Shown in pieces: positions 1,462-40,128 of a DNA stretch of 41,424 bases. The position numbers and the translations under genes are program-made. The notes under the pieces are model-generated. The model was given only the letters and a program-made list of their open reading frames with translations. It did not search any database and was not told where the DNA came from. Position 1 is the stretch's first letter. Each line of letters opens with the position of its first letter. Origin of the DNA: Nitrosomonadales bacterium. GTDB taxonomy: Bacteria; Pseudomonadota; Gammaproteobacteria; Burkholderiales; Gallionellaceae. Location: contig JACPVZ010000071.1 of assembly GCA_016197305.1 (NCBI GenBank), positions 1 through 41,424 of the forward strand, written 5' to 3'.

Positions 1462-1796
1462 TTTTTGCGTTTCTTGGGTTGCGCGCCGGCAGTGGTTGAG
1501 ATGATTCCAGCCGATGGGGCCTTGTCGAGGCGGGCTCATGATAGCTTATTCCGCTTTTTCGATGAAGTGTCGTTGGGCGCAATCTGCCGGTGCGGCACAG
1601 CTGGCGCCGGATTCCAGTAAAATCCGCGGCTGCTAATGTCGTCGAATATCCAAATTATGAGTACACCACATTTCCCGTGCTGCCCGGCTCGTTGCATTCT
1701 GTCCGGTATGCTGCCGCTCGTGGGCATTTCAGCTCGATCCTGTTGCAGACAGGATGGCTGCTCGCACGGCTTCATCGAGAGCCGGTCTTGTTAGAC
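1462..1796. other. Divergent intergenic region, nothing firm
   Basis: These 335 bases separate two divergently read membrane-protein genes, so at least two promoters must lie here. A TAAAAT at 1618-1623 could be a -10 box for the rightward gene, but I see no matching -35. The frame of the rightward gene stays open upstream to 1590, but that extension is not hydrophobic and resembles no PglL N-terminus. A 45-codon cysteine-rich open frame at 1657-1794 lacks a ribosome binding site. Confidence 0.5.
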
Positions 1797-3578
1797 ATGC
1801 TTCGGCTGCGTTTGGGCAGACTCAGCCTCGCCGATGCCAGTCTCGCTCTGGTCGGCCTGATGTGGATTTTCCCTTTCTTGCATTATCGTCATCAATACCC
1901 ATTGACCACCTTCTACCAGGAATGGTGGAGTGCGCTGCTCGGCGTGCTGGCGCTGTGCTTGTTATGTGCGCGCAGTTATTGGGAGCGACCGGGAATCCCG
2001 CGCATCGTGCAGTTGCCGGTGGCGTTGATTTTTGTGGTGTTGTTGCAATGGGGGTTGGGGCCGGCCATCTATGTTCAGCAGGTGATGCTGTATGTTCTGT
2101 ATCTGCTATTTGCGGCGTTGCTGATGTTGCTGGGCGCGAGGTTGCGCGATTGCTTCGGCATAGACCAGCTGGCGCTGGTGCTTGCCGCATGTTTGCTGGT
2201 TGGCGCCGAGTTGAATGCGGCGATAGGCGTGATCCAGCAGTACCGTTGGTCGACGCCGCTGGATGCAGTGACCGTGATGAAAGTCTCATCCAGCGTGTTC
2301 GGCAACATCGCACAGCCGAATCATTTTGCCAATTACATCGCGTTGGGGCTGGCCTCGCTGGGTCTGCTGTATCAACAGCGGCGGGTGGCGACATACGGTG
2401 CGGTGCTGCTGGCGATCCCGTTGCTGTTCGTGATGACCCTGAGCGGTTCGCGCAGCTCATGGCTGTATTTGCTTTGGCTGGTCGGGCTGTCAGCGTGGTG
2501 GGGGTGGCGCGATGCGAAGCAGCGCCGGCTGTTGCGCTACAGTTTGTCGTTGCTGGCCGGGTTCGGCCTGATGCACCTGCTTGTGCAGTTGCCGTTGCTG
2601 ACGGTTGCGGGCAGCAGCACCGATACCGTACAGCGCCTGATCGGCGATGAAGTGACCGGCGGCGGGATTCGCCTTTATTTGTGGCGCGAGGCCGCGTTGA
2701 TGTTCGTCCAGTCCCCATGGCTGGGATCAGGATTCGGGCAGTTTGCGTGGCAGCATCTGCAGCTGCTGCCGGAGTTAAGGCAGCACGGTGTCGTCGGTCT
2801 GTACAACAACGCGCACAATCTGATCTTCCATCTGGCAGCCGAGGCAGGTGTCGCCGGATTGCTGGCATTGCTCGTTCCTTTGGCGCTATGGTGGGCAGGC
2901 TTGCACCGGATGACGATGGATGTGGGGTATTGGTGGGGCATTGTGATATTGGGCGTGCTGGGCATACACAGCCTGCTGGAATATCCGCTGTGGTACGCCT
3001 ATTTTATCGCGATCGCGGCGCTCCTGATGGGCGCGCTGGATCAGACCCGATATCGCCTGGAGTTGCGTCAGGCGGGACGCATCTCGGTGTTGGCGATGAT
3101 GCTGATGGGCGTGGTGACGCTGGTGCAGCTGCGCAGCGATTACCGGCAGCTCGAGCAGGCGGTAGCTGTCCGCCCGGCTTCCGGTTCTGCCGCGGCGCCT
3201 TTCGAAAACGTCAAGGCAAGCCTGGCCGAAATCAGTGCCGGTTCGTTGTTGTCGCCCTATGCGGAGCTGTTTATCAGTTCGCTGATCGAGGTAAATGCTC
3301 AGCGCGTCGGAGAAAAGCTGGCGTTGAACACCCGGGTGGCGCATTTCGCGCCGATCGGCCTGGTGGTGTACCGCCAGGTGCTGCTGCTGGCCCAGTCGGG
3401 CCGGATCGAACAGGCCAAAATCCTGCTGGTGCAGGCACTGTGGTCTTATCCGGCGGATTTTCCGGGGGTGCGCAAGCAGATTGCCGGGCTGGCCGATAAA
3501 GACCCCGCGCACTTTTCCGCTCTGCTAGAATTCGCAATCCAGAAAGAACAGGAATATCTGCATGCAGTTCGTCATTAG
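1797..3578 (+). CDS. PglL-type O-oligosaccharyltransferase / O-antigen ligase-like protein
   Basis: The 593-residue protein has about eleven hydrophobic helices and a C-terminal, mostly soluble helical region. An N-terminal FYQEWW motif, the central QPNHFANYI (about residues 173-181, with the conserved His) and SGSRSSWLYL further on are typical of the PglL_A/Wzy_C/Wzy_C_2 family. These enzymes transfer lipid-linked glycans to serine or threonine of pilins and other periplasmic proteins; relatives are O-antigen ligases. I chose the ATG at 1797 because the protein then begins just before the first helix, and its length fits PglL (about 600). Starting at 1590 would add 69 unrelated residues. The end overlaps the rhodanese gene by 17 bases. 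An MSHA pilus locus lies 3 kb downstream, so pilins are possible acceptors (inference). Confidence 0.75.
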   Translation: MLRLRLGRLSLADASLALVGLMWIFPFLHYRHQYPLTTFYQEWWSALLGVLALCLLCARSYWERPGIPRIVQLPVALIFVVLLQWGLGPAIYVQQVMLYVLYLLFAALLMLLGARLRDCFGIDQLALVLAACLLVGAELNAAIGVIQQYRWSTPLDAVTVMKVSSSVFGNIAQPNHFANYIALGLASLGLLYQQRRVATYGAVLLAIPLLFVMTLSGSRSSWLYLLWLVGLSAWWGWRDAKQRRLLRYSLSLLAGFGLMHLLVQLPLLTVAGSSTDTVQRLIGDEVTGGGIRLYLWREAALMFVQSPWLGSGFGQFAWQHLQLLPELRQHGVVGLYNNAHNLIFHLAAEAGVAGLLALLVPLALWWAGLHRMTMDVGYWWGIVILGVLGIHSLLEYPLWYAYFIAIAALLMGALDQTRYRLELRQAGRISVLAMMLMGVVTLVQLRSDYRQLEQAVAVRPASGSAAAPFENVKASLAEISAGSLLSPYAELFISSLIEVNAQRVGEKLALNTRVAHFAPIGLVVYRQVLLLAQSGRIEQAKILLVQALWSYPADFPGVRKQIAGLADKDPAHFSALLEFAIQKEQEYLHAVRH

Positions 3579-3972
3579 CAATTTTTTCCCGATTTCCGTG
3601 GCGGCGCTCAGCGGCGCCATGCTGCTATGGTCGATGTTTGGCAATCGTTTACGCGGCATACGCGAAGTCGACTGCAGTGCTGCGCTGCAGCTGATCAATC
3701 ATAAGGATGCGCTGGTGCTGGATGTGCGCGAAGAAAAGGAATACCAGTCCGGCCATGTTCTGAATTCGATGCTGATCCCGTTGTTCAAGCTGAACGAACG
3801 CATCGGCGAACTGGAAAAATACCGCGACCGGCCTGTCATCGTGATGTGCCGCAGCGGCAATCGTTCCACCAGCGCGTGCGCGCTGCTCGGCAAGCAGGGT
3901 TTTACACAGGTGTACAACCTGGCGGGTGGGATAACGGCATGGCAGAAGGCCAACCTCCCCCTGAAAAAATGA
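3562..3972 (+). CDS. Membrane-anchored rhodanese-like protein (YibN type)
   Basis: A 136-residue protein with one N-terminal membrane helix (about residues 5-26) and a single rhodanese domain. The active-site loop reads CRSGNRS, and LDVREEKEYQSGHV is the usual rhodanese substrate-side motif. Such domains carry a persulfide on the loop cysteine and transfer sulfur; the precise partner is unknown. The order rhodanese, grxC, secB, gpsA is the same as yibN-grxC-secB-gpsA in Escherichia coli, which supports the assignment. The start overlaps the PglL-like gene and the stop overlaps the grxC start region, so the genes are probably co-transcribed. Confidence 0.9.
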   Translation: MQFVISNFFPISVAALSGAMLLWSMFGNRLRGIREVDCSAALQLINHKDALVLDVREEKEYQSGHVLNSMLIPLFKLNERIGELEKYRDRPVIVMCRSGNRSTSACALLGKQGFTQVYNLAGGITAWQKANLPLKK

Positions 3973-4229
3973 TGGCCGAGGTCGTGATGTATTGCACCGC
4001 GGTGTGCCCGTATTGTGTCCGTGCGGAGCAATTGTTGCGGCATAAAGGCGTGCTGCAGATCGACAAGATTCGTGTCGATCTGCAGCCGGAGTTGCGGGCC
4101 GCGATGATGGAGAAGACCGGGCGGCGCACCGTGCCGCAGATTTATATCAACGGTGAGCATGTCGGCGGTTACGATGATCTGGCCGCGCTCGATCATGCCG
4201 GAAAACTGGATCAATTATTAACGAAATAA
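3972..4229 (+). CDS. grxC: Glutaredoxin 3
   Basis: An 85-residue glutaredoxin with the CPYC dithiol active site (about residues 11-14), the cis-proline motif TVPQIYING and the GG-containing glutathione-binding stretch VGGYDDLAAL. It reduces disulfides and glutathionylated proteins using glutathione in the cytoplasm. Two in-frame ATG codons are adjacent (3969 and 3972). I chose 3972 because MAEVVMY aligns with the start of E. coli Grx3; 3969 would add one Met. The start overlaps the rhodanese stop (TGATG). Only 16 bases separate the stop from the next gene. Confidence 0.93.
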   Translation: MAEVVMYCTAVCPYCVRAEQLLRHKGVLQIDKIRVDLQPELRAAMMEKTGRRTVPQIYINGEHVGGYDDLAALDHAGKLDQLLTK

Positions 4230-4245: not shown

Positions 4246-4812
4246 ATGACCGAGGCAGCACAGAATCAGCAACCGATATTCAGCATGGAAAAGATCTACG
4301 TGAAGGATATCTCGCTGGAGATACCCCACGCTCCCCAGGTTTTTCTGGAGCGCGAAAACCCGCAAATCGATGTCCAGCTGAACACCCAGGCTGGAGCGGT
4401 CGAGGAAGGTATCTTCGAGGTCGTGGTGACCGCGACTGTGACCGCCAAGGCCGGCGACAAGGTGATGTTCCTGATCGAGGCCAAGCAGGCGGGCATCTTC
4501 CAGGTTCGCCATGACCGCTACATGCCGTTCGAGCAGATAGTGACGCTGGATAGCTGGGTCAAGGTGCGCGACCGATCGGGCGGTCTGTACTGGGTGGAGA
4601 AACGCGTGCTGAGCAGCAAGCGTTATGTCGTTGCATTGCCGACCGTGCTGGAGGCGCGCGCCGCGCCCGATGCGGGGGCGGCCAGGGCATTCAAGGTGAG
4701 TCAGCAGGTGGCGCTGGAATGGCTGGAATCTACCGGCAGCGGCTGGATCAAGGTGCGCCATCAGGACGGTGAGGTCGGCTATGTGCGCAGCACCGAGGTG
4801 TGGGGCGGCTGA
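4246..4812 (+). CDS. secB: SecB N-terminal half fused to an SH3-domain protein (chimera)
   Basis: Residues 1 to about 86 are clear SecB: FSMEKIYVKDISLEIPHAP, FEVVVTATV and the conserved VMFLIEAKQAGIFQ. From about residue 88 the protein no longer follows SecB. The conserved second half (normally continuing to GIACPNILFPYAR and NFEALY) is absent. Instead, residues 89-188 form bacterial SH3-like repeats (LDSWVKVRDRSGGLYWVEKR; GWIKVRHQDGEVGYV). This matches SH3-type proteins often found between secB and gpsA, but without their signal peptide and first residues. SecB is normally about 150-170 residues and works as a cytoplasmic tetrameric export chaperone. The missing half contains much of the tetramer and substrate surface, so chaperone function is doubtful. 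The frame is continuous across 4501-4516. An in-frame deletion or an assembly collapse would both explain it. A good ribosome site (AAAGGAAACG) precedes the ATG. Confidence 0.88.
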   Translation: MTEAAQNQQPIFSMEKIYVKDISLEIPHAPQVFLERENPQIDVQLNTQAGAVEEGIFEVVVTATVTAKAGDKVMFLIEAKQAGIFQVRHDRYMPFEQIVTLDSWVKVRDRSGGLYWVEKRVLSSKRYVVALPTVLEARAAPDAGAARAFKVSQQVALEWLESTGSGWIKVRHQDGEVGYVRSTEVWGG

Positions 4813-4884: not shown

Positions 4885-5886
4885 ATGAGAGTTACTATCC
4901 TTGGCGCGGGAGCGTGGGGAACCGCGCTCGCGATCAGCCTGTCTGCGCATCATCGCGTCACGCTGTGGGCTCGCAGCGGGGTGCAAATCGAAACGATGCG
5001 CAGCGCACGCTGCAACCAGCGCTATCTGCCCGACATAGCGCTGCCCGCGGCGCTTGTGCTGACCGCAAATATCGAGCAGGCGTTGGCGGATGCGGACCTG
5101 GCGATCATCGCTGTGCCGACCGCGGCCTTGCGCGCCACCCTGCAACAGTTGCTGGCAGCAACACCGCGTCGAGCCGGGCTGGGGGTGGTGTGGGTGTGCA
5201 AGGGGTTCGAGGCGGGGACGTCGATGCTGCCGCATCAGGTCGTGGCCGAGGTGTTGCCGGCGGCGATGCGATCCGGGGTGTTGTCCGGGCCCAGTTTCGC
5301 GCAGGAGGTGGCGCGCGATCTGCCTACCGCGCTGACCCTGGCTTCCGCCGACGATGAGTTTGCGCGCACGACTGCGCAGGCCTTGCACCACTCGCGTTTG
5401 CGTATCTATGCCAGCAACGATGTGGTGGGGGTGGAGGTGGGCGGCGCGGTGAAGAACGTGATGGCGATCGCTGCCGGGATATCGGATGGTCTGGGCCTGG
5501 GCCATAACGCCCGTGCAGCGTTGTTGACGCGCGGCCTGGCAGAGATCACGCGGCTGGGGTTGAGGCTGGGCGGGTGTGCCGAAACGCTGGGCGGCTTGTC
5601 CGGTGCGGGCGATTTGATCCTGACCTGTACCGGGGACCTGTCGCGCAACCGTCAGGTGGGGCTGCTGCTGGCCCAGCAACATGACCTGGCGGAAATATTG
5701 CACCGGCTGGGGCATGTCGCAGAGGGGGTGTACACGGTGCGCGAAGTACATCAGCTTGCATTGCGGCTGGATGTTGCAATGCCGATCTGCGAGGCGGTGT
5801 ACCGCATTTTATACGAGCATGTGCCGGCCTCCGAGATGGTGGCGGCGCTGTTGAGTCGTGTCCCCGGTGTGGAGTTCGATCAGTGA
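4885..5886 (+). CDS. gpsA: Glycerol-3-phosphate dehydrogenase [NAD(P)+]
   Basis: A 333-residue cytoplasmic enzyme, normal length for GpsA. The N-terminal Rossmann motif GAGAWGTALA (about residues 7-16) binds NAD(P)H. The segments GPSFAQEVA, GGAVKNVMAIAAG with the catalytic lysine, and GLSGAGDLILTCTG are family hallmarks. It reduces dihydroxyacetone phosphate to sn-glycerol-3-phosphate, the backbone for phospholipids. It lies 72 bases after the SecB-SH3 gene, the standard order for this cluster, and converges on trmL with a 12-base gap. No unusual residues seen. Confidence 0.96.
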   Translation: MRVTILGAGAWGTALAISLSAHHRVTLWARSGVQIETMRSARCNQRYLPDIALPAALVLTANIEQALADADLAIIAVPTAALRATLQQLLAATPRRAGLGVVWVCKGFEAGTSMLPHQVVAEVLPAAMRSGVLSGPSFAQEVARDLPTALTLASADDEFARTTAQALHHSRLRIYASNDVVGVEVGGAVKNVMAIAAGISDGLGLGHNARAALLTRGLAEITRLGLRLGGCAETLGGLSGAGDLILTCTGDLSRNRQVGLLLAQQHDLAEILHRLGHVAEGVYTVREVHQLALRLDVAMPICEAVYRILYEHVPASEMVAALLSRVPGVEFDQ

Positions 5887-13336: not shown

Positions 13337-13770
13337 AGACAATGCGCAAAATTCAACGGGGTTTCAGCCTGATTTCGGCGATCTTCCTGCTGGTGGTGAT
13401 CGCCGCACTCGGGACTTTCGCGGTGACGCTGTCCACCACGCAGCAGCAGAGCGCCGCGCTGGACGTGCTGGGCGCGCGTGCCTACCAGGCTTCGCGCGTC
13501 GGCATCGAATGGGGGGCATATCAGGTGTTGCCGGCTTCTGCTGCGGCCTTTGCATCGACCTGCCGTACTGCGGGTAGCCATAGTCAGATATTGAGCGGTC
13601 TGCCGAACTCGCTGGCCGGTTTTACTGTCACAGTGCAATGCAACGCCAGTTCGCATGTCGAGGCGACCAGCACGCTGTGGGTGTACAACCTGACCTCGAC
13701 TGCGGCACAGGGGGTGGTGGCAAACCCTGATTATGTCGAGCGGCAGATGGCGGTGACGATCGCGCAATAA
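13333..13770 (+). CDS. mshP: MSHA minor pilin-like protein MshP
   Basis: A 145-residue protein with leader MKTMRKIQRG and hydrophobic helix FSLISAIFLLVVIAALGTFAV. The position normally holding Glu at +5 is Ser here (FSLIS). Lack of Glu5 is known for MshP/GspK-PilX-like minor pilins, which can sit at the pilus tip. The TLSTTQQQSAALDVLGARAYQASRVGIEWGAYQ segment is typical of MshP. It is followed by mshQ after 43 bases. Confidence 0.88.
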   Translation: MKTMRKIQRGFSLISAIFLLVVIAALGTFAVTLSTTQQQSAALDVLGARAYQASRVGIEWGAYQVLPASAAAFASTCRTAGSHSQILSGLPNSLAGFTVTVQCNASSHVEATSTLWVYNLTSTAAQGVVANPDYVERQMAVTIAQ

Positions 13771-13813
13771 CCTCTGCGGTTGGTGGTCATGTGTTTTAAC
13801 AGGAGTCATTGCA

Positions 13814-16800
13814 ATGAAACTTTTCACGATACGTGCTGCTCATGTTCTGGTTTTTCTCTGCATGGCAATGTTTGCGCAAGGTGCTGCGGCATTGTGTATC
13901 AGCACCGCGGTAAACAAGGACTGGAAAGACAATATCTGGACCGCAACGGCGCCGGATACCAACGCGACCTGCAACACCGGTTCAGGTCCGGCTGCAGGCA
14001 GCAGCGTCGTGATCGCGAGTGGCAGCAACATCCTGGTGGATACCAATACGTTGACGGTGGCCAACGTGACCATCAATTCGGGCGGCACCTTGCAAGGTAA
14101 AGTCAACAACACGCTCAGCCTGACCGGCAATCTGACCAATGGCGGAGGCACATTTACTGCGGGTAGCGGCACGGTCGCGCTGGTGGGTTCGACAACGCAA
14201 ACCATCAGTGGAACATTTGCATTTTCCAATCTGACGTTGTCCAACCCGGCGGGAGTGACGATTTCAGGAACGGTTTCCGTCACAGGTGCTTTTACCCCGG
14301 GAACGACGCCTGTCACTGTACTGGCCGGTTCTACGCTGACGATTAATGGTGTGCTTTATACCGGCCCGTGCAGCGGGATTTACGGGGCAGGTTATTGCAC
14401 GGCGCCTTCAGTGACGGCGATCAATACCGCGAGCGGCAATCCCACTGCTGCAGCGAGCGTTTCCTGGACGGTCACTTTCAATACCAGTGTGGCCGGTTTA
14501 AACAGCGGCAATTTCACGCTGGTCAGCACCGGGTTGGGTGGGGCTCCGGCGATTACCTCGGTCGCGGGCAGCGGCGCAACCTGGACAGTTACCGCAAGCA
14601 CCGGAACGGGGACTGGCACACTGGGTTTGAACATGACCAGCAGCACCGGCGTGACCCCGGCAGTAACCGGTTTGCCGTTCACCGGGCAGGTGTATTCAGT
14701 CAGGCCGCCTACGCCGGTGACGTATTATCACGACACAACAGCGGGCATGGCGATAGGATTCGACGGTGCGACGAATGTGGTGTCGGGCACCAATGTGACC
14801 ATCCCGCCTGTCATCACGGCATCATTGGTCAAAACCAGCGCCTGTACCGGCAATGCCCGGTCGGCTAATCACCCGACCGGGACATATACGCAATCGCGAT
14901 GGTATCTCAACGCCAATTACGCGGTCGATACGAGTATCGGCGCAAACCCTGCAGGTAGCGCACGCCTGCGGGGCGGGGCAGCTACCGATACGGTCATCGT
15001 GCGTCTCTATGACTACGATCCCGTGTCGGGAGCAAAGCTGCTGATCGGTTCCAGCGCCCCGATCACGCTGACTACATTCAATACAACGACTAGCTATCCC
15101 TATACGATCAGCAGCCCTGTCTATACTGTGGTCGCCGGTCATCGCCTGATGCTGCAATACGATTTCAATCAGCCTGTCGCGACCTATAACGCGCGTGTCT
15201 ATTGTTCTGCGACTGGTGCTTATATCACGGTGATTGAAACACCCACGGTTGCAGTTGCCGTCGATCACTATGAGTTGTCCTTGCCGACGGCCAGCCTTGC
15301 CTGCCTGCCCAGCACGGTGACGGTCACGGCTTGTAAAGACAGCAGCAGCCCCTGCACCAACAAGTCTCCGGATGTCAGCGGCAAGACCGCCACGCTGGCA
15401 ACCAATGCCGGGATGCTGGCTGCTGCCACCGTGACTTTCAATGCTGCGGGTGTGGCCAGCACTACATTGAGCTATCCCGCTGCCGTTGACGGGGCGGCGG
15501 TGTCGGTGAGTCTCTTCGGCGAGCAGGCTGCTGCGGTCAATCTGCGCAAATGTTGTCCCGACGGGGCAAGTTGCGCGGTTGCGAACAGTTGCTCCACGAC
15601 CTTCAACACGGCCGGTTTCCTGTTCTCCGCGGCGGCAAACGGCGCAGCGGCAACCATCCCCAGCCAGATCGCGGGCACGTCTTCGGCCACCTATTACCTG
15701 CGGGCAGTGAAGACGAACACTGCGACGATGGCTTGCCAGTCCGCGTTGGCGGGTGCGCAGACGGTCAACTTTGCCTATGAGTGTATCGACCCCACCACTT
15801 GCTACGCGGCCAACCTGATGAGCGTGAACGGGGGGGCGGCAACCACGATCGCACGCAACAACAACGGCAGCGTGGCAAGTTACACCGGGGTCAACATGAC
15901 TTTCGATGCGAACGGCAATGCACCCTTCACGTTCAACTATGGCGACGTGGGGCAGGTGAAGCTGCATGCCAGCAAGGCGGCCGGCGGGGCATTGCTGTCT
16001 GCGCTGACGGGTTCTACCAATGCTTTTGTGACCGCGCCCGGCGGCTTCGTATTGTCCGGCATCAGTCAGACGGCGGCGCCGAATCTGGCGAATCCCGCCG
16101 CTGCGAATGCGGCCGGTGCAAAATTCGTCAAGGCCGGGGAAGCGTTTTCCGTTACCGCTACGGCGGTGACTTCGACCGGGAGCGTCGCCTATAACTACGG
16201 CAGGGAGAATAGCCCGGAAAGCGTCAGGCTGACGCCTGCGCTGGTCGCCGGATTGGGTTTGACCAACAATCCGGCGGTGAGCGGGGCTTTCGGCGCTTTC
16301 GGGAAAAATTGCAGCGGTGTGGCCGATCCCGCCTGGACAGGCATGGCTTGCGGAACGGCATTCGCATGGAACGAGGTGGGTATCATCAAATTGACGCCGG
16401 GTGTGGCGGATGGCAATTATCTCGGCGCGGGTGATGTCGTGGGCACCCAAACCGGCAACGTCGGGCGATTCTATGCGGCAAAATTCGCGCTGTCGGGTGG
16501 CGCAATCGCCAACCGTACCGCGCTTTCAGGCTGCACCGTGCCGGCGGGTTGCGGTACGTTTACCTATATCGGCGAACCGATGAGCGCGGTATTTTCACTG
16601 ATTGCCAAGGCGGCAGACGGGACGACCACATTGCAGAATTATGCGGCCGCGAATCAGTTTGCCAAACTGGACCCGCTCGCGGCGGTGACGTCCGGAACGG
16701 GCGGCCCGCTTGTGATCGGTGCGGTGGACAGTTCTGCTGCGCGGACGCCGTTCCCGCCCTGTGGGGGGGGGCCGGTTCATCCTTGTCTGACTGCTGCGCA

Positions 16801-17416
16801 GGCGACATCGGGCACCTTCGCATCGGGTGTGGCGAGCGTCACGGTGCCGCTTGCGATCTACCGGGATAATGCGGTTGCCGCAGGCCCTTATGCGGTGCTG
16901 GATATCGGCATCGCCCCGCAGGATGGCGATGGCGCGGCCATGGCGGCATATGACCTGGATACCGTGAATGTGGTCGCGGGCGCGAACAACCATGCGAAGG
17001 TCGGGCGCACCGAGGCGCGGTATGGGCGGCTGAAATTATCCAATGCACACGGCTCGGAGTTGTTGCCGCTGCCGATCAGCGTGACTGCGCAATATTGGAA
17101 CGGCGCGACCTATGTCACCAACGCGCTGGACAGCCACAGCAGTTTCGCAGCGTCCGATGTGATTTTCAGCAACCCACAGAAAAACCTGGCTGTAGGTGAG
17201 ACCAGCGTCGTTACGCCACCGGCTGCGGTGGTATTCAGCAGCGGGGTTGCGGGCTACCAGTTGGCAAGGCCAAGTGGCGGTGACGGCAAGTACGATGGCA
17301 GCCTGGACATGGCGGTGAACATCATTGCTGCATACTTGCCAAGCAATACGGCACGCGCCACCTTCGGAGTTTACAAGGGCAACAACGAGTTCATTTACTT
17401 GCGTGAGAGTTACTGA
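13814..17416 (+). CDS. mshQ: Large MSHA surface protein MshQ (DUF6701-type)
   Basis: A 1200-residue exported protein. A signal peptide (residues 1-27, AQGAAA before the mature LC) leads into a parallel-beta-like repeat region rich in Asn, Thr and Gly (about 65-185). An Ig-like module follows (about 195-290, with GLNSGNFTLV and a WTVTASTGTGTGTL stretch). The long C-terminal region opens with DHYELSLPTASLACLPSTVTVTAC and ends AYLPSNTARATFGVYKGNNEFIYLRE, both features of DUF6701/MshQ proteins. It is the final gene of the pilin block, as in other MSHA loci. It is probably cell-surface or pilus-tip associated, with a possible adhesive role (inference). A run of nine G at 16763-16771 (Cys-Gly-Gly-Gly-Pro) could slip and truncate the protein. 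Confidence 0.88.
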   Translation: MKLFTIRAAHVLVFLCMAMFAQGAAALCISTAVNKDWKDNIWTATAPDTNATCNTGSGPAAGSSVVIASGSNILVDTNTLTVANVTINSGGTLQGKVNNTLSLTGNLTNGGGTFTAGSGTVALVGSTTQTISGTFAFSNLTLSNPAGVTISGTVSVTGAFTPGTTPVTVLAGSTLTINGVLYTGPCSGIYGAGYCTAPSVTAINTASGNPTAAASVSWTVTFNTSVAGLNSGNFTLVSTGLGGAPAITSVAGSGATWTVTASTGTGTGTLGLNMTSSTGVTPAVTGLPFTGQVYSVRPPTPVTYYHDTTAGMAIGFDGATNVVSGTNVTIPPVITASLVKTSACTGNARSANHPTGTYTQSRWYLNANYAVDTSIGANPAGSARLRGGAATDTVIVRLYDYDPVSGAKLLIGSSAPITLTTFNTTTSYPYTISSPVYTVVAGHRLMLQYDFNQPVATYNARVYCSATGAYITVIETPTVAVAVDHYELSLPTASLACLPSTVTVTACKDSSSPCTNKSPDVSGKTATLATNAGMLAAATVTFNAAGVASTTLSYPAAVDGAAVSVSLFGEQAAAVNLRKCCPDGASCAVANSCSTTFNTAGFLFSAAANGAAATIPSQIAGTSSATYYLRAVKTNTATMACQSALAGAQTVNFAYECIDPTTCYAANLMSVNGGAATTIARNNNGSVASYTGVNMTFDANGNAPFTFNYGDVGQVKLHASKAAGGALLSALTGSTNAFVTAPGGFVLSGISQTAAPNLANPAAANAAGAKFVKAGEAFSVTATAVTSTGSVAYNYGRENSPESVRLTPALVAGLGLTNNPAVSGAFGAFGKNCSGVADPAWTGMACGTAFAWNEVGIIKLTPGVADGNYLGAGDVVGTQTGNVGRFYAAKFALSGGAIANRTALSGCTVPAGCGTFTYIGEPMSAVFSLIAKAADGTTTLQNYAAANQFAKLDPLAAVTSGTGGPLVIGAVDSSAARTPFPPCGGGPVHPCLTAAQATSGTFASGVASVTVPLAIYRDNAVAAGPYAVLDIGIAPQDGDGAAMAAYDLDTVNVVAGANNHAKVGRTEARYGRLKLSNAHGSELLPLPISVTAQYWNGATYVTNALDSHSSFAASDVIFSNPQKNLAVGETSVVTPPAAVVFSSGVAGYQLARPSGGDGKYDGSLDMAVNIIAAYLPSNTARATFGVYKGNNEFIYLRESY

Positions 17417-17426
17417 TGCTCCCGAT

Positions 17427-17461
17427 CGCCACAGCGCCTGGGGGTAGAGGACGCTGTGGCG
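17427..17461 (+). terminator. Hairpin after mshQ, possible terminator
   Basis: A perfect 10-base inverted repeat CGCCACAGCG / CGCTGTGGCG (17427-17436, 17452-17461) encloses a 15-base loop, starting 11 bases after the mshQ stop. No T-run follows, so it may stabilise the 3' end or assist Rho rather than act as a classic intrinsic terminator. Confidence 0.45.
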
Positions 17462-17530
17462 TGACGCATATCCGATAGCGGGATTTCACGGCAACCCGCC
17501 TGGATATTGCGGCTAAAAATATAAAATCTA

Positions 17531-30768: not shown

Positions 30769-32811
30769 ATGCAAAGAGTGAGCGAATTCCTGTACCGAAA
30801 AATGAGCTGCGATATCGACGTGTCGAATTTCCCGATACGCGCCGAGCAGATACGCACCCGCCTGCGGGGATACCCGTTGATGATCGCGACCCAGCTGATA
30901 GTCGCGCTGTTGTTGTGCGCGTTGATGTGGGACAAGGTCTCGCATGGGGTGCTGCTGGGCTGGCTGGCGGGCCTGTATGCGGCGCATCTGCTGGAAGGCT
31001 GGCACTGGTGGCGGTATCGGCAGGCGACCAGCACGGTGGCGGAATGCCGCCAATGGCGCACGCGCTTCATCGTGTTCGTCACGCTGGTCGGAGTGGCATG
31101 GGGCAGCGCCGGGACGCTGATGTTTGTCGAGGGCGATCTGGCCTATCAGGCGATGCTGATTTGTGTGGTGCTGGGGCTGGCGGCGGGTGCCACGACGATC
31201 AATCCGGTGTTTCCGCCGGCCCTGTATATCTATGTGACGCTGCTGATCCTGCCGCTTACTGTGGAAAATATCCTGCTTGCCGATGCAACGCACCTGACTC
31301 TGGCGGGCATGCTGTCGGTCTACCTGGTATTCGTGTTGAATGCCGGAGGCGATCTGGCGAAGACGTTTGAGCTGTCGTTGCGCAGGGAGCTGGAAAATAT
31401 CAGGCTGGTGGAACAAATGACCGAGGAGAAACTGCGCGCCGAACGGGCGCAGCTTTCGGCCGAGCAAGCCAACCAGATGAAATCCAAGTTTTTCGCGGCA
31501 GCCAGCCACGATTTGCGCCAGCCCATGCATGCGCTGGCGCTGTTCGTCGAGGTGCTGAAAGGCAGGGAGCACGACGAGCAGACGATCCGTTTGATCGGGC
31601 AGGTGGAAAATTCGGTCGAGGCTTTGGCGGGGATGTTTGACGCATTGCTGGATATTTCCAAGCTGGATGCCGGTGTGGTGCAGCCGCACTGTGAGGATGT
31701 CAGGATTCAGGCGCTGCTGGACCGGATGTATGCGGAATTTTCATGGCTGGCGCACGACAAGGGGTTGAATTTCGAGGTGGGCAATTGTCCGCATGCGGTC
31801 TATACCGATCCGTTGTTGCTGGAACGGGTGCTGCGCAATCTGATTTCCAATGCGGTGCGCTACACCGATCGTGGCGGTGTAACCGTGACTTGCGAGACTG
31901 TCGAGGAGGGGGTGCAGCTGGTGGTGCGCGACACCGGGATCGGCATCGCTCCCGAACATTTTCCGCACATCTTCGAGGAATACTATCAGGTCGGCAATCA
32001 GCAGCGCGACCGCAGCAAGGGCCTGGGGCTGGGGCTGGCCATCGTCAAACGTCTGGAACAGTTGCTTGGTTACCGGATGAAACTGGACTCGACGCTGGGA
32101 AAGGGGAGCTGCTTCACCTTGCTGGTGCCGTTTGGCCGCCGCATCTCCAGGATTCTGTTGGTGGATGACCACGCGCTGTTTCGTGAAGGCATGCGCTATG
32201 TGTTGCAGCAGTTGTCCGTGGCAGTCGAGGTGCTTGAGGCGGGGAGCTTCCCGGATGGTGTAGGGATGGCCGAGCGGCATCCGGATTTGAGCCTGGCCTT
32301 GCTGGACTTGCACATGCCGGGCAGCGAGGGTGCGGCATCCATCAGGTTATTTAGCCAGCGTTATCCGAATGTCCCGGTGGTCGTGGTGTCCGGTGAGGAA
32401 GGGCGCAATGTGATGGAAAAGGTCATGGATGCAGGCGCGAGCGGGTTTGTGTGCAAGAACTCCAGCGCCGCGGTGATGCTGGGTGCGCTCAACCTGGTGC
32501 TGGCCGGTGGCGTGTTCATTCCTCCGCAAATGTTGCAGCGGCACGCGGCGTTGGCAGAGCAGGAAGCGCCTCCGGTCGATGGGCGCAGCACGCGTACCAG
32601 CGAGTATGGCTTGACCGGACGTCAGATGCAGGTGCTGGCGCAATTGGCATCCGGTGCGTCGAACAGGGAGATTGCCGAGCAGATGGGGATCGCGGAAGGA
32701 ACCGTGAAGATACATGTTGCCGCAACCTACCAAGCGTTACGGGTTAACAGCCGTATGGAGGCGGTGCGCGTCGCCAAGCAACTCGGGCTGATCGGTGGAC
32801 TCGATGGCTGA
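30769..32811 (+). CDS. Membrane histidine kinase fused to a NarL/FixJ-type response regulator
   Basis: A 680-residue protein with all parts in one frame. Six hydrophobic helices (about 36-54, 60-78, 99-118, 124-143, 150-170, 176-194) are followed by a coiled coil (about 200-240). HisKA has [12 protein letters not shown] with the phosphoacceptor His247. The HATPase has N-box [11 protein letters not shown] (356-366), DTGIGIA (388-394) and GLGLGLAIV (418-426). A receiver (462-575) has Asp466/467, phosphoacceptor Asp513 in LLDLHMPG and Lys563. A LuxR-type HTH (about 612-672) has [26 protein letters not shown]. Kinase and DNA-binding regulator are normally separate proteins; here the join is at [13 protein letters not shown] (457-468) with almost no linker. 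Its signal and targets are unknown. The last bases overlap ftsK. Confidence 0.88.
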
Positions 32812-37032: not shown

Positions 37033-39323
<2,291 letters not shown>

Positions 39324-39354
39324 CTGCATGCGTAATGAAAAGCCAGGCGCATAG

Positions 39355-40128
39355 ATGAAAATCGTCCATCTGCTCGGCATCGCCGGGGTCGAGTCACATG
39401 AACAGCCAACTGCGCGGCTGTGGGCTAAGCGCCTGGAGTGGCCGATGCTGGCGGTGGCATTGTGGATTCCGGTGCAGTGGTATCTGGCGGAAACGCAGAT
39501 CATCTCGCTGGCTCAGGGGAAAGTTGCCGACTGGCTCATCTGGTTGGCCTTCCTGTTTGAAACAGCCTTGCTGACCGGGCTGGTCCGGAACAAGCGCGAT
39601 TACCTGCTGCGTAACTGGATGAACCTGGCCATTATCGTCGGTGGCCTGCCCATCGTTTGGCAATATACCCCGTTGATTGGCCTGATGCGCAGCCTGCGTC
39701 TGGTGCTGGTGGTCGTTTTGCTGGCACGCTTGTCCAGGACGATACGCAAGCTGCTGTCGCGCCATCAGCTCGGCACCACGTTGGTGGTGGCCTTCGTCAC
39801 GATGGTGTTGTCCGGTGTGATCGTATCGCGTCTGGATTCTTCCATCGGCAGCATTTGGGATGGCATGTGGTGGGCATGGGTCACGATGGCCACGGTGGGC
39901 TATGGCGATGTGGTGCCGCACAACGCCGCAGGGCGGATGTTCGGTGCGCTGCTGATTTTGTTCGGCGTGGTGCTGTTGTCGTTGCTGACCGCGAACCTGG
40001 CGGCGTTCTTTATCGGCAGCGATGTCGAGAAAGTGGAACAGGAGGAGAAGCAGGCGGATCGCTTGCTGGCCGATATTGCGGCACGGCTGGATCGGATCGA
40101 AAAAAAGCTCGATCGGCTCGAACGTTGA
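39355..40128 (+). CDS. Voltage-gated-like potassium channel protein
   Basis: A 257-residue protein of the six-helix ion transport family. Helices S1-S4 cover about residues 28-130; the S4-like segment has regularly placed arginines (LMRSLRLVLVVVLLARLSRTIRKL). The pore loop has the potassium selectivity filter TVGYGD (about residue 180), followed by the last helix. A coiled-coil tail (about 220-257, RLLADIAARLDRIEKKLDRLER) probably drives tetramer assembly. Function in potassium or membrane-potential homeostasis follows from the filter; the gating signal is unknown. No clear Shine-Dalgarno of its own: the ATG overlaps the stop of the small ORF before it. It converges on mltF with 15 bases between. 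Confidence 0.9.
   Translation: MKIVHLLGIAGVESHEQPTARLWAKRLEWPMLAVALWIPVQWYLAETQIISLAQGKVADWLIWLAFLFETALLTGLVRNKRDYLLRNWMNLAIIVGGLPIVWQYTPLIGLMRSLRLVLVVVLLARLSRTIRKLLSRHQLGTTLVVAFVTMVLSGVIVSRLDSSIGSIWDGMWWAWVTMATVGYGDVVPHNAAGRMFGALLILFGVVLLSLLTANLAAFFIGSDVEKVEQEEKQADRLLADIAARLDRIEKKLDRLER

Follow-up and report, generated by a model that had tools for sequence, protein, structure and literature searches.

An in-frame secB-SH3 chimeric gene upstream of gpsA in a Gallionella-group metagenome bin, probably the remnant of a recent deletion

The SecB fold is composed of four strands and two helices. In the excerpted text of PMC4257090, helices alpha1 and alpha2 are described as building the tetramer and the client groove, and residues D20, E24, L75 and E77 of E. 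coli SecB are linked to SecA binding. For E. coli secB mutants with polarity on gpsA the same excerpts report a defect on rich LB agar, and for a non-polar secB deletion they report cold sensitivity; the gene order is secB then gpsA, as in the locus described here, and loss of secB need not silence gpsA (PMC4257090). The change that we describe, if real, differs from those mutations in that it arose naturally, kept the frame and joined secB to another gene. Our literature searches on a fusion of SecB with SH3 listed one review, on Gram-positive bacteria, and those on Gallionella secB listed no work; the word "fusion" is absent from the accessible portion of PMC4361572.

We analyzed a stretch of DNA of 41,424 nucleotides (hereafter the window), which is contig 14 of a 169-contig bin of 1,990,822 bases (completeness 79.7%, contamination 3.7%). 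According to the list of open reading frames and its translation, positions 4246-4812 of the forward strand form a single open frame of 188 residues, in which SecB residues 1-89 are followed by a hybrid codon 90 and then by the tail of an exported protein with two SH3 domains. The SecB model PF02556, which has 141 positions, matched residues 6-89 over its positions 2-85 (101.9 bits with a cut-off of 26), while a Pfam search of the protein gave two SH3_4 stretches above threshold, the best at residues 137-187. The in-frame fusion of SecB to an SH3 protein, which an earlier note had proposed from the sequence alone, is thus borne out. The features of the locus are listed below; G064 is a one-contig genome that served as the reference because it ranked first by summed identity of the SecB half, the SH3 part and gpsA.

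3562..3972, + strand: rhodanese-domain protein gene, upstream (PF00581, 75.1 bits; collinear 136-residue counterpart in G064, 71% identity)
3972..4229, + strand: glutaredoxin (grxC-like) gene (PF00462, 73.3 bits; same locus as secB in relatives)
4246..4812, + strand: SecB-SH3 chimeric gene, 188 residues (open reading frame, translation, Pfam)
4246..4513, + strand: secB-derived part, the beta-sheet half, with residues 1-89 plus one base of codon 90 (PF02556 positions 2-85 of 141; 4513 is the last base of a blastn block against G064)
4513..4515, + strand: hybrid codon 90 (GAC) with the putative deletion junction 4513|4514, G probably from the secB side and AC probably from the SH3 side
4514..4812, + strand: part derived from the SH3 protein, with a truncated first repeat and the second repeat (Pfam, genome scan, G064 blocks)
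4654..4806, + strand: second SH3 repeat (PF06347 positions 7-56 of 56)
4885..5886, + strand: gpsA, intact, downstream (PF07479, 186.1 bits; PF01210, 160.9 bits; 78% identity to G064)

Just upstream of the rhodanese gene, positions 1590-3578 encode an O-antigen ligase or PglL-type glycosylation ligase (Wzy_C, Wzy_C_2, PglL_A).

We compared the two halves of the chimera with the families from which they derive. Residues 6-87 aligned without gaps to residues 5-86 of E. coli SecB (E = 9.4e-16; family models PF02556 and TIGR00809, structures 1QYN from E. coli and 1FX3/1OZB from H. influenzae), and the SecA-contact residues of the beta-sheet are kept in this ungapped alignment, with D21, E25, L76 and E78 corresponding to E. 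coli D20, E24, L75 and E77. However, the chimera did not match SecB over its full length, scoring 90.3 with TIGR00809 (cut-off 102.8) and 130.3 with NF004394 (cut-off 181), whereas the intact SecB of G064 scored 165.8 and 230.9, respectively. After residue 89 the sequence is SH3-derived, such that the SecB sheet is kept while helices alpha1 and alpha2 are both gone; with a PF02556 match that ends at position 85 of 141, the half that serves the tetramer and client groove is missing, as had been claimed.

The SH3 part of the chimera shares 48-83% identity with the copies, at the loci of relatives, of an exported protein (PF06347/PF08239) that occupies the same place before gpsA. Compared to those copies, it lacks the N-terminal export helix, the mature N terminus and the front of the first SH3 repeat. 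Only part of the "two-repeat" description in the earlier note therefore stands: in a genome scan with SH3_4 (PF06347), the second repeat is present over positions 7-56 of 56, but the first, at 4504-4614, covers positions 19-55 of 56 and alone falls below the cut-off, giving one and a part repeat rather than two full ones. With the SH3-and-anchor model TIGR04211, the second repeat of the chimera scored 22.9 bits and the intact relative 23.8 (cut-off 65). The predicted structure of an intact relative (mean pLDDT 87.2) has an N-terminal helix at 7-24, which we read as a putative signal peptide; this hydrophobic helix is absent from the chimera, which starts with SecB, in keeping with the earlier claim that the signal peptide had been lost. 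The chimera resumes at R59 of the intact relative and lacks the three strands ahead of it (33-36, 40-44 and 53-58); the first repeat of the intact protein matches positions 4-55, and two stretches pass the threshold. The break on the SH3 side thus lies within a domain, as would be expected of a random deletion and not of domain shuffling.

An AlphaFold model of the fusion had a mean pLDDT of 79.8 and a pTM of 0.43, and in the alignment behind it the C-terminal halves of the SecB rows were misaligned on SH3 columns; two other alignments (A3 and A4), which put pieces of SH3 onto columns of SecB, were set aside. Residues 1-25 and 29-34 and the junction at 90-92 had pLDDT values below 50, while the ten-residue blocks from 131 onward were at 92-98. 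A Foldseek search with this model listed SH3 proteins of bacteria on the one hand and SecB on the other, each matching part of it.

Comparison with G064 placed both breakpoints at 4513|4514, in codon 90. G064 is still distant from the window (identities of 84% for the SecB half, 77% for the SH3 part, 78% for gpsA and 85% for grx), and the two are collinear over a chain of 22 blocks from 1849 to 41421 (30.4 kb aligned, 77.5% identity) in which the first 1.8 kb of the window has no block. Two adjacent blocks meet at 4513 / 4514, where G064 carries 344 bases between them and the window adds 0. Among the 21 block boundaries, to which this comparison was confined, it is the sole one with 0 window bases and hundreds in G064; at the other 20 the difference is at most 117 bases, save two at which the window is longer. 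When the split point was slid along the G064 sequences, a single best position was found (57 of 66 bases), each neighbor giving 56 with no plateau. Because G064 has GTG on the SecB side and AAC on the SH3 side of the join, we read the GAC of the window as G plus AC. Of the 63 relatives in the non-redundant set described below, 59 could be parsed by the pattern used; the SecB codon at the junction site begins with G in 20 of them and the SH3-side codon is AAC in 21, while the preceding codon, CAT in the window, is AAT in 32, AAC in 25 and CAT in 2. The missing length implied by these 59 relatives ranges from 323 to 466 bases with a mode of 350 (n = 9), and together with the 344 bases of G064 it matches the roughly 300-400 extra bases anticipated for a two-gene version. 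The switch from SecB to SH3 sequence, which had been put at about residue 88, does occur but slightly later, at codon 90. Microhomology between the breakpoints, also suggested earlier, was rejected, since the split-point scan against G064 gave one peak with zero bases in common at the join; in the ancestor's own sequence, a microhomology of a base or two may have existed.

A join of this kind could be an artefact of the metagenome assembly, with some 344 bases lost through a chimeric read, an erroneous merge or a join made at low coverage; the organism itself would then have two normal genes. The sequence derives from a single bin of 169 contigs with 3.7% contamination, which is compatible with such an error, but, judged against G064, the breakpoints share no sequence with each other, which argues against a collapse in a k-mer graph and led us to reject a repeat-driven collapse; in addition, the reading frame is kept and the remaining boundaries of the chain do not show the same pattern. 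We consider an artefact possible but rather unlikely. Of the two origins offered by the earlier note, deletion is therefore favored, while assembly collapse is weakened by the lack of a common stretch at the breakpoints. We believe that a real and recent in-frame deletion of about 344 bases probably destroyed both genes and left behind a chimera that is null for both. A real deletion is most likely because no repeat is seen that would explain a collapse and the join accounts for every base, although a join would preserve the frame with a chance of only 1 in 3.

The organization of the locus in relatives was assessed in several collections. In a search of 76 genomes of the same genus, 70 had a match, the window's own included, and among these the window alone gave a single match spanning residues 1-188. 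The fusion was found in none of the 69 other matching genomes: in 68 of them SecB and SH3 fell into different matches, of which each genome had two or three, and the remaining one (G069) had a SecB match only, its SH3 gene being separate and cut by a contig end. The presence of separate genes in all 69 is in keeping with an artefact. Since SecB is present in these genomes, whether beside or apart from SH3, its loss is presumably costly. Frames were parsed in 93 further loci, a redundant set in which many are the same contig present in two collections; 91 had a SecB of at least 140 residues and a separate SH3 frame, and the other two, both from the contig of G034, had SH3 and gpsA only. In the non-redundant set, defined as the 63 relatives in which grx, secB, SH3 and gpsA were all found, SecB and SH3 were separate frames at one locus with grx and gpsA in every case (63/63), which confirms that the SH3 gene normally stands on its own between secB and gpsA. 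With the longest frames taken, 20 of 44 relatives showed a one-base overlap between the SH3 start and the stop of secB. The exported two-SH3 protein of the secB-gpsA interval (e.g., L002:1498-1965(-)) is without a family name, and it accompanies secB throughout this Gallionella-group genus and also in further families within the order. E. coli presumably has no SH3 gene between secB and gpsA.

We also looked for a fused copy beyond the genus. At E <= 1e-36, a threshold at which a less similar fusion in a remote family would go unnoticed, 7 of 300 genomes sampled from the order matched, and the match of the window itself was the only one to cover both halves. The fusion was likewise absent from 48 related genome_contigs loci (mostly Gallionella, Gallionellales, Gallionellaceae, Candidatus Ferrigenium and Nitrosomonadales), a set from which the window's own record was possibly excluded and in which 47 of the 48 are labeled metagenome-assembled. 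The exact junction sequence had no match in viral_contigs, where none was expected.

Six same-genus genomes had no match (G001, G021, G073, G075, G087 and G098). In the first five, gpsA had no match or only a remote one (27-30%), and in G098 gpsA begins at base 71 of its contig. These six genomes therefore do not demonstrate secB loss, and we rejected the idea that secB is dispensable throughout the genus. G001, which is 99% complete, had no SecB, SH3 or gpsA match (gpsA at E <= 1e-5); either the block is missing from its assembly or the lineage has replaced it. In loci L123 (G069) and L124 (G087), genes that we take to be trmL-like and pilus-ATPase-like occur together with no gpsA upstream in the stretches covered, and the block order seems to be broken there.

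A search for another secB, which the earlier note had called for, found none in the bin (79.7% complete), the sole SecB match being the chimera. In principle, an earlier duplication of secB could have made the fusion redundant, with an intact copy lying in the unassembled fifth of the genome; at 79.7% completeness and in 169 contigs, the bin is such that another secB could sit in the missing part. However, the genus search gave one SecB match per matching genome, and with the SecB model G027 and G036 had one SecB each and G018 had one plus a match below the cut-off, making a duplication highly improbable. The additional match in G018 (L054, G018:C77:71774-72112) is SecB-like and scored 20.6 bits with a cut-off of 26. 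The SecA of the bin has 905 residues with the four SecA domains and a SEC-C motif at 885-903, i.e., the zinc tail is kept.

Neither half of the chimera shows decay, whether judged by conserved positions, branch lengths or dN/dS. At positions conserved in at least 95% of sequences, the window has 0 changes among 26 in the SecB half and 0 among 25 in the SH3 part; leave-one-out means in relatives were 0.59 and 0.33, respectively, and the zeros are therefore ordinary. On a fixed tree in which the window's position is weakly supported (24-25 at the nearest supported nodes), its terminal branch accounted for 1.6% of tree length in the SecB half (rank 13 of 64) and 2.3% in the SH3 part (rank 5), the latter being somewhat long and near the value for gpsA (2.0%, rank 7). 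For grx the value was 1.1% (rank 20), but many genomes carry an upstream-extended grx frame (127 residues versus 85 in the window), which makes grx an unreliable reference in all three comparisons; gpsA serves better. Relative to G064, dN/dS was 0.066 for the SecB half, 0.172 for SH3, 0.152 for gpsA and 0.244 for grx (dS 0.67-1.37), and over five relatives it was 0.066-0.176 for the SecB half and 0.093-0.252 for SH3, these values being averages over a long branch of which much may predate the fusion. The SecB half of the intact G064 gene gave 0.111-0.154 with three relatives. Given this lack of decay, the fusion is recent compared with the length of the branch, is under constraint, or is not real. 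Both halves are conserved to the degree seen in intact genes, which suits an artefact or a constrained chimera no less than a recent event.

A constrained chimera could be a working protein in which the SecB beta-sheet, with its SecA-contact face, acts as a SecA-docking or regulatory module that carries cytoplasmic SH3 domains. The four SecA-binding residues, the SecA zinc tail, the low dN/dS of the SecB half and the confidently modeled second SH3 domain are all compatible with such a function. Nevertheless, the tetramer-packing helices are missing, the first SH3 repeat is cut, the region of the first strand and the junction were modeled with low confidence, the dN/dS signal may largely have been acquired before the fusion, and no second genome with the fusion was found in the genus, the 48 loci or the 300 genomes of the order. 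We consider a working module improbable. Its boldest form, likewise improbable, would be an expressed chimera of natural origin whose SecA-docking sheet, rid of the client-binding helices, bears the SH3 domains; the lineage would then have given up SecB while keeping the SecB-binding zinc tail of SecA.

We favor the recent deletion instead. With the size seen in G064, it would have cost secB its 3' half and the SH3-protein gene its 5' third, and the reading frame would have been preserved by chance. The resulting molecule, if it is real in cells as we infer, would consist of the SecB beta-sheet without its helices and of one and part of another SH3 domain, would be retained in the cytoplasm and would most likely be inactive, a null for both genes. 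A fusion that keeps the frame creates no early stop ahead of gpsA, and we would expect gpsA to have been spared. Protein export would presumably continue via SecA, perhaps with DnaK, trigger factor or further chaperones assisting. A real junction would represent a natural loss of secB in a genus whose other matching genomes keep the gene, and a snapshot taken just after the loss, with the frame and the downstream gpsA spared and the zinc tail of SecA still present. It would then allow one to ask how a diderm iron oxidizer exports proteins without SecB and how long the SecA tail survives. Were it an artefact, the case would serve as a reminder that chimeric genes in metagenome bins call for support from reads even when the join is clean and in frame.

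Elsewhere in the window, three further regions differed from collinear G064. The region 13490-17522 is 1203 bases longer in the window; within it, 13814-17416 holds a 1200-residue frame (DUF6701 and a G8 domain) where G064 has one of 767 residues, and only the ends of the two are alike. Between two conserved blocks, 39036-39356 holds about 306 bases more than G064. Finally, 30769-32811 is one frame of 680 residues in the window and two frames of 489 and 224 residues in G064 (L105), which points to a frameshift or split there.
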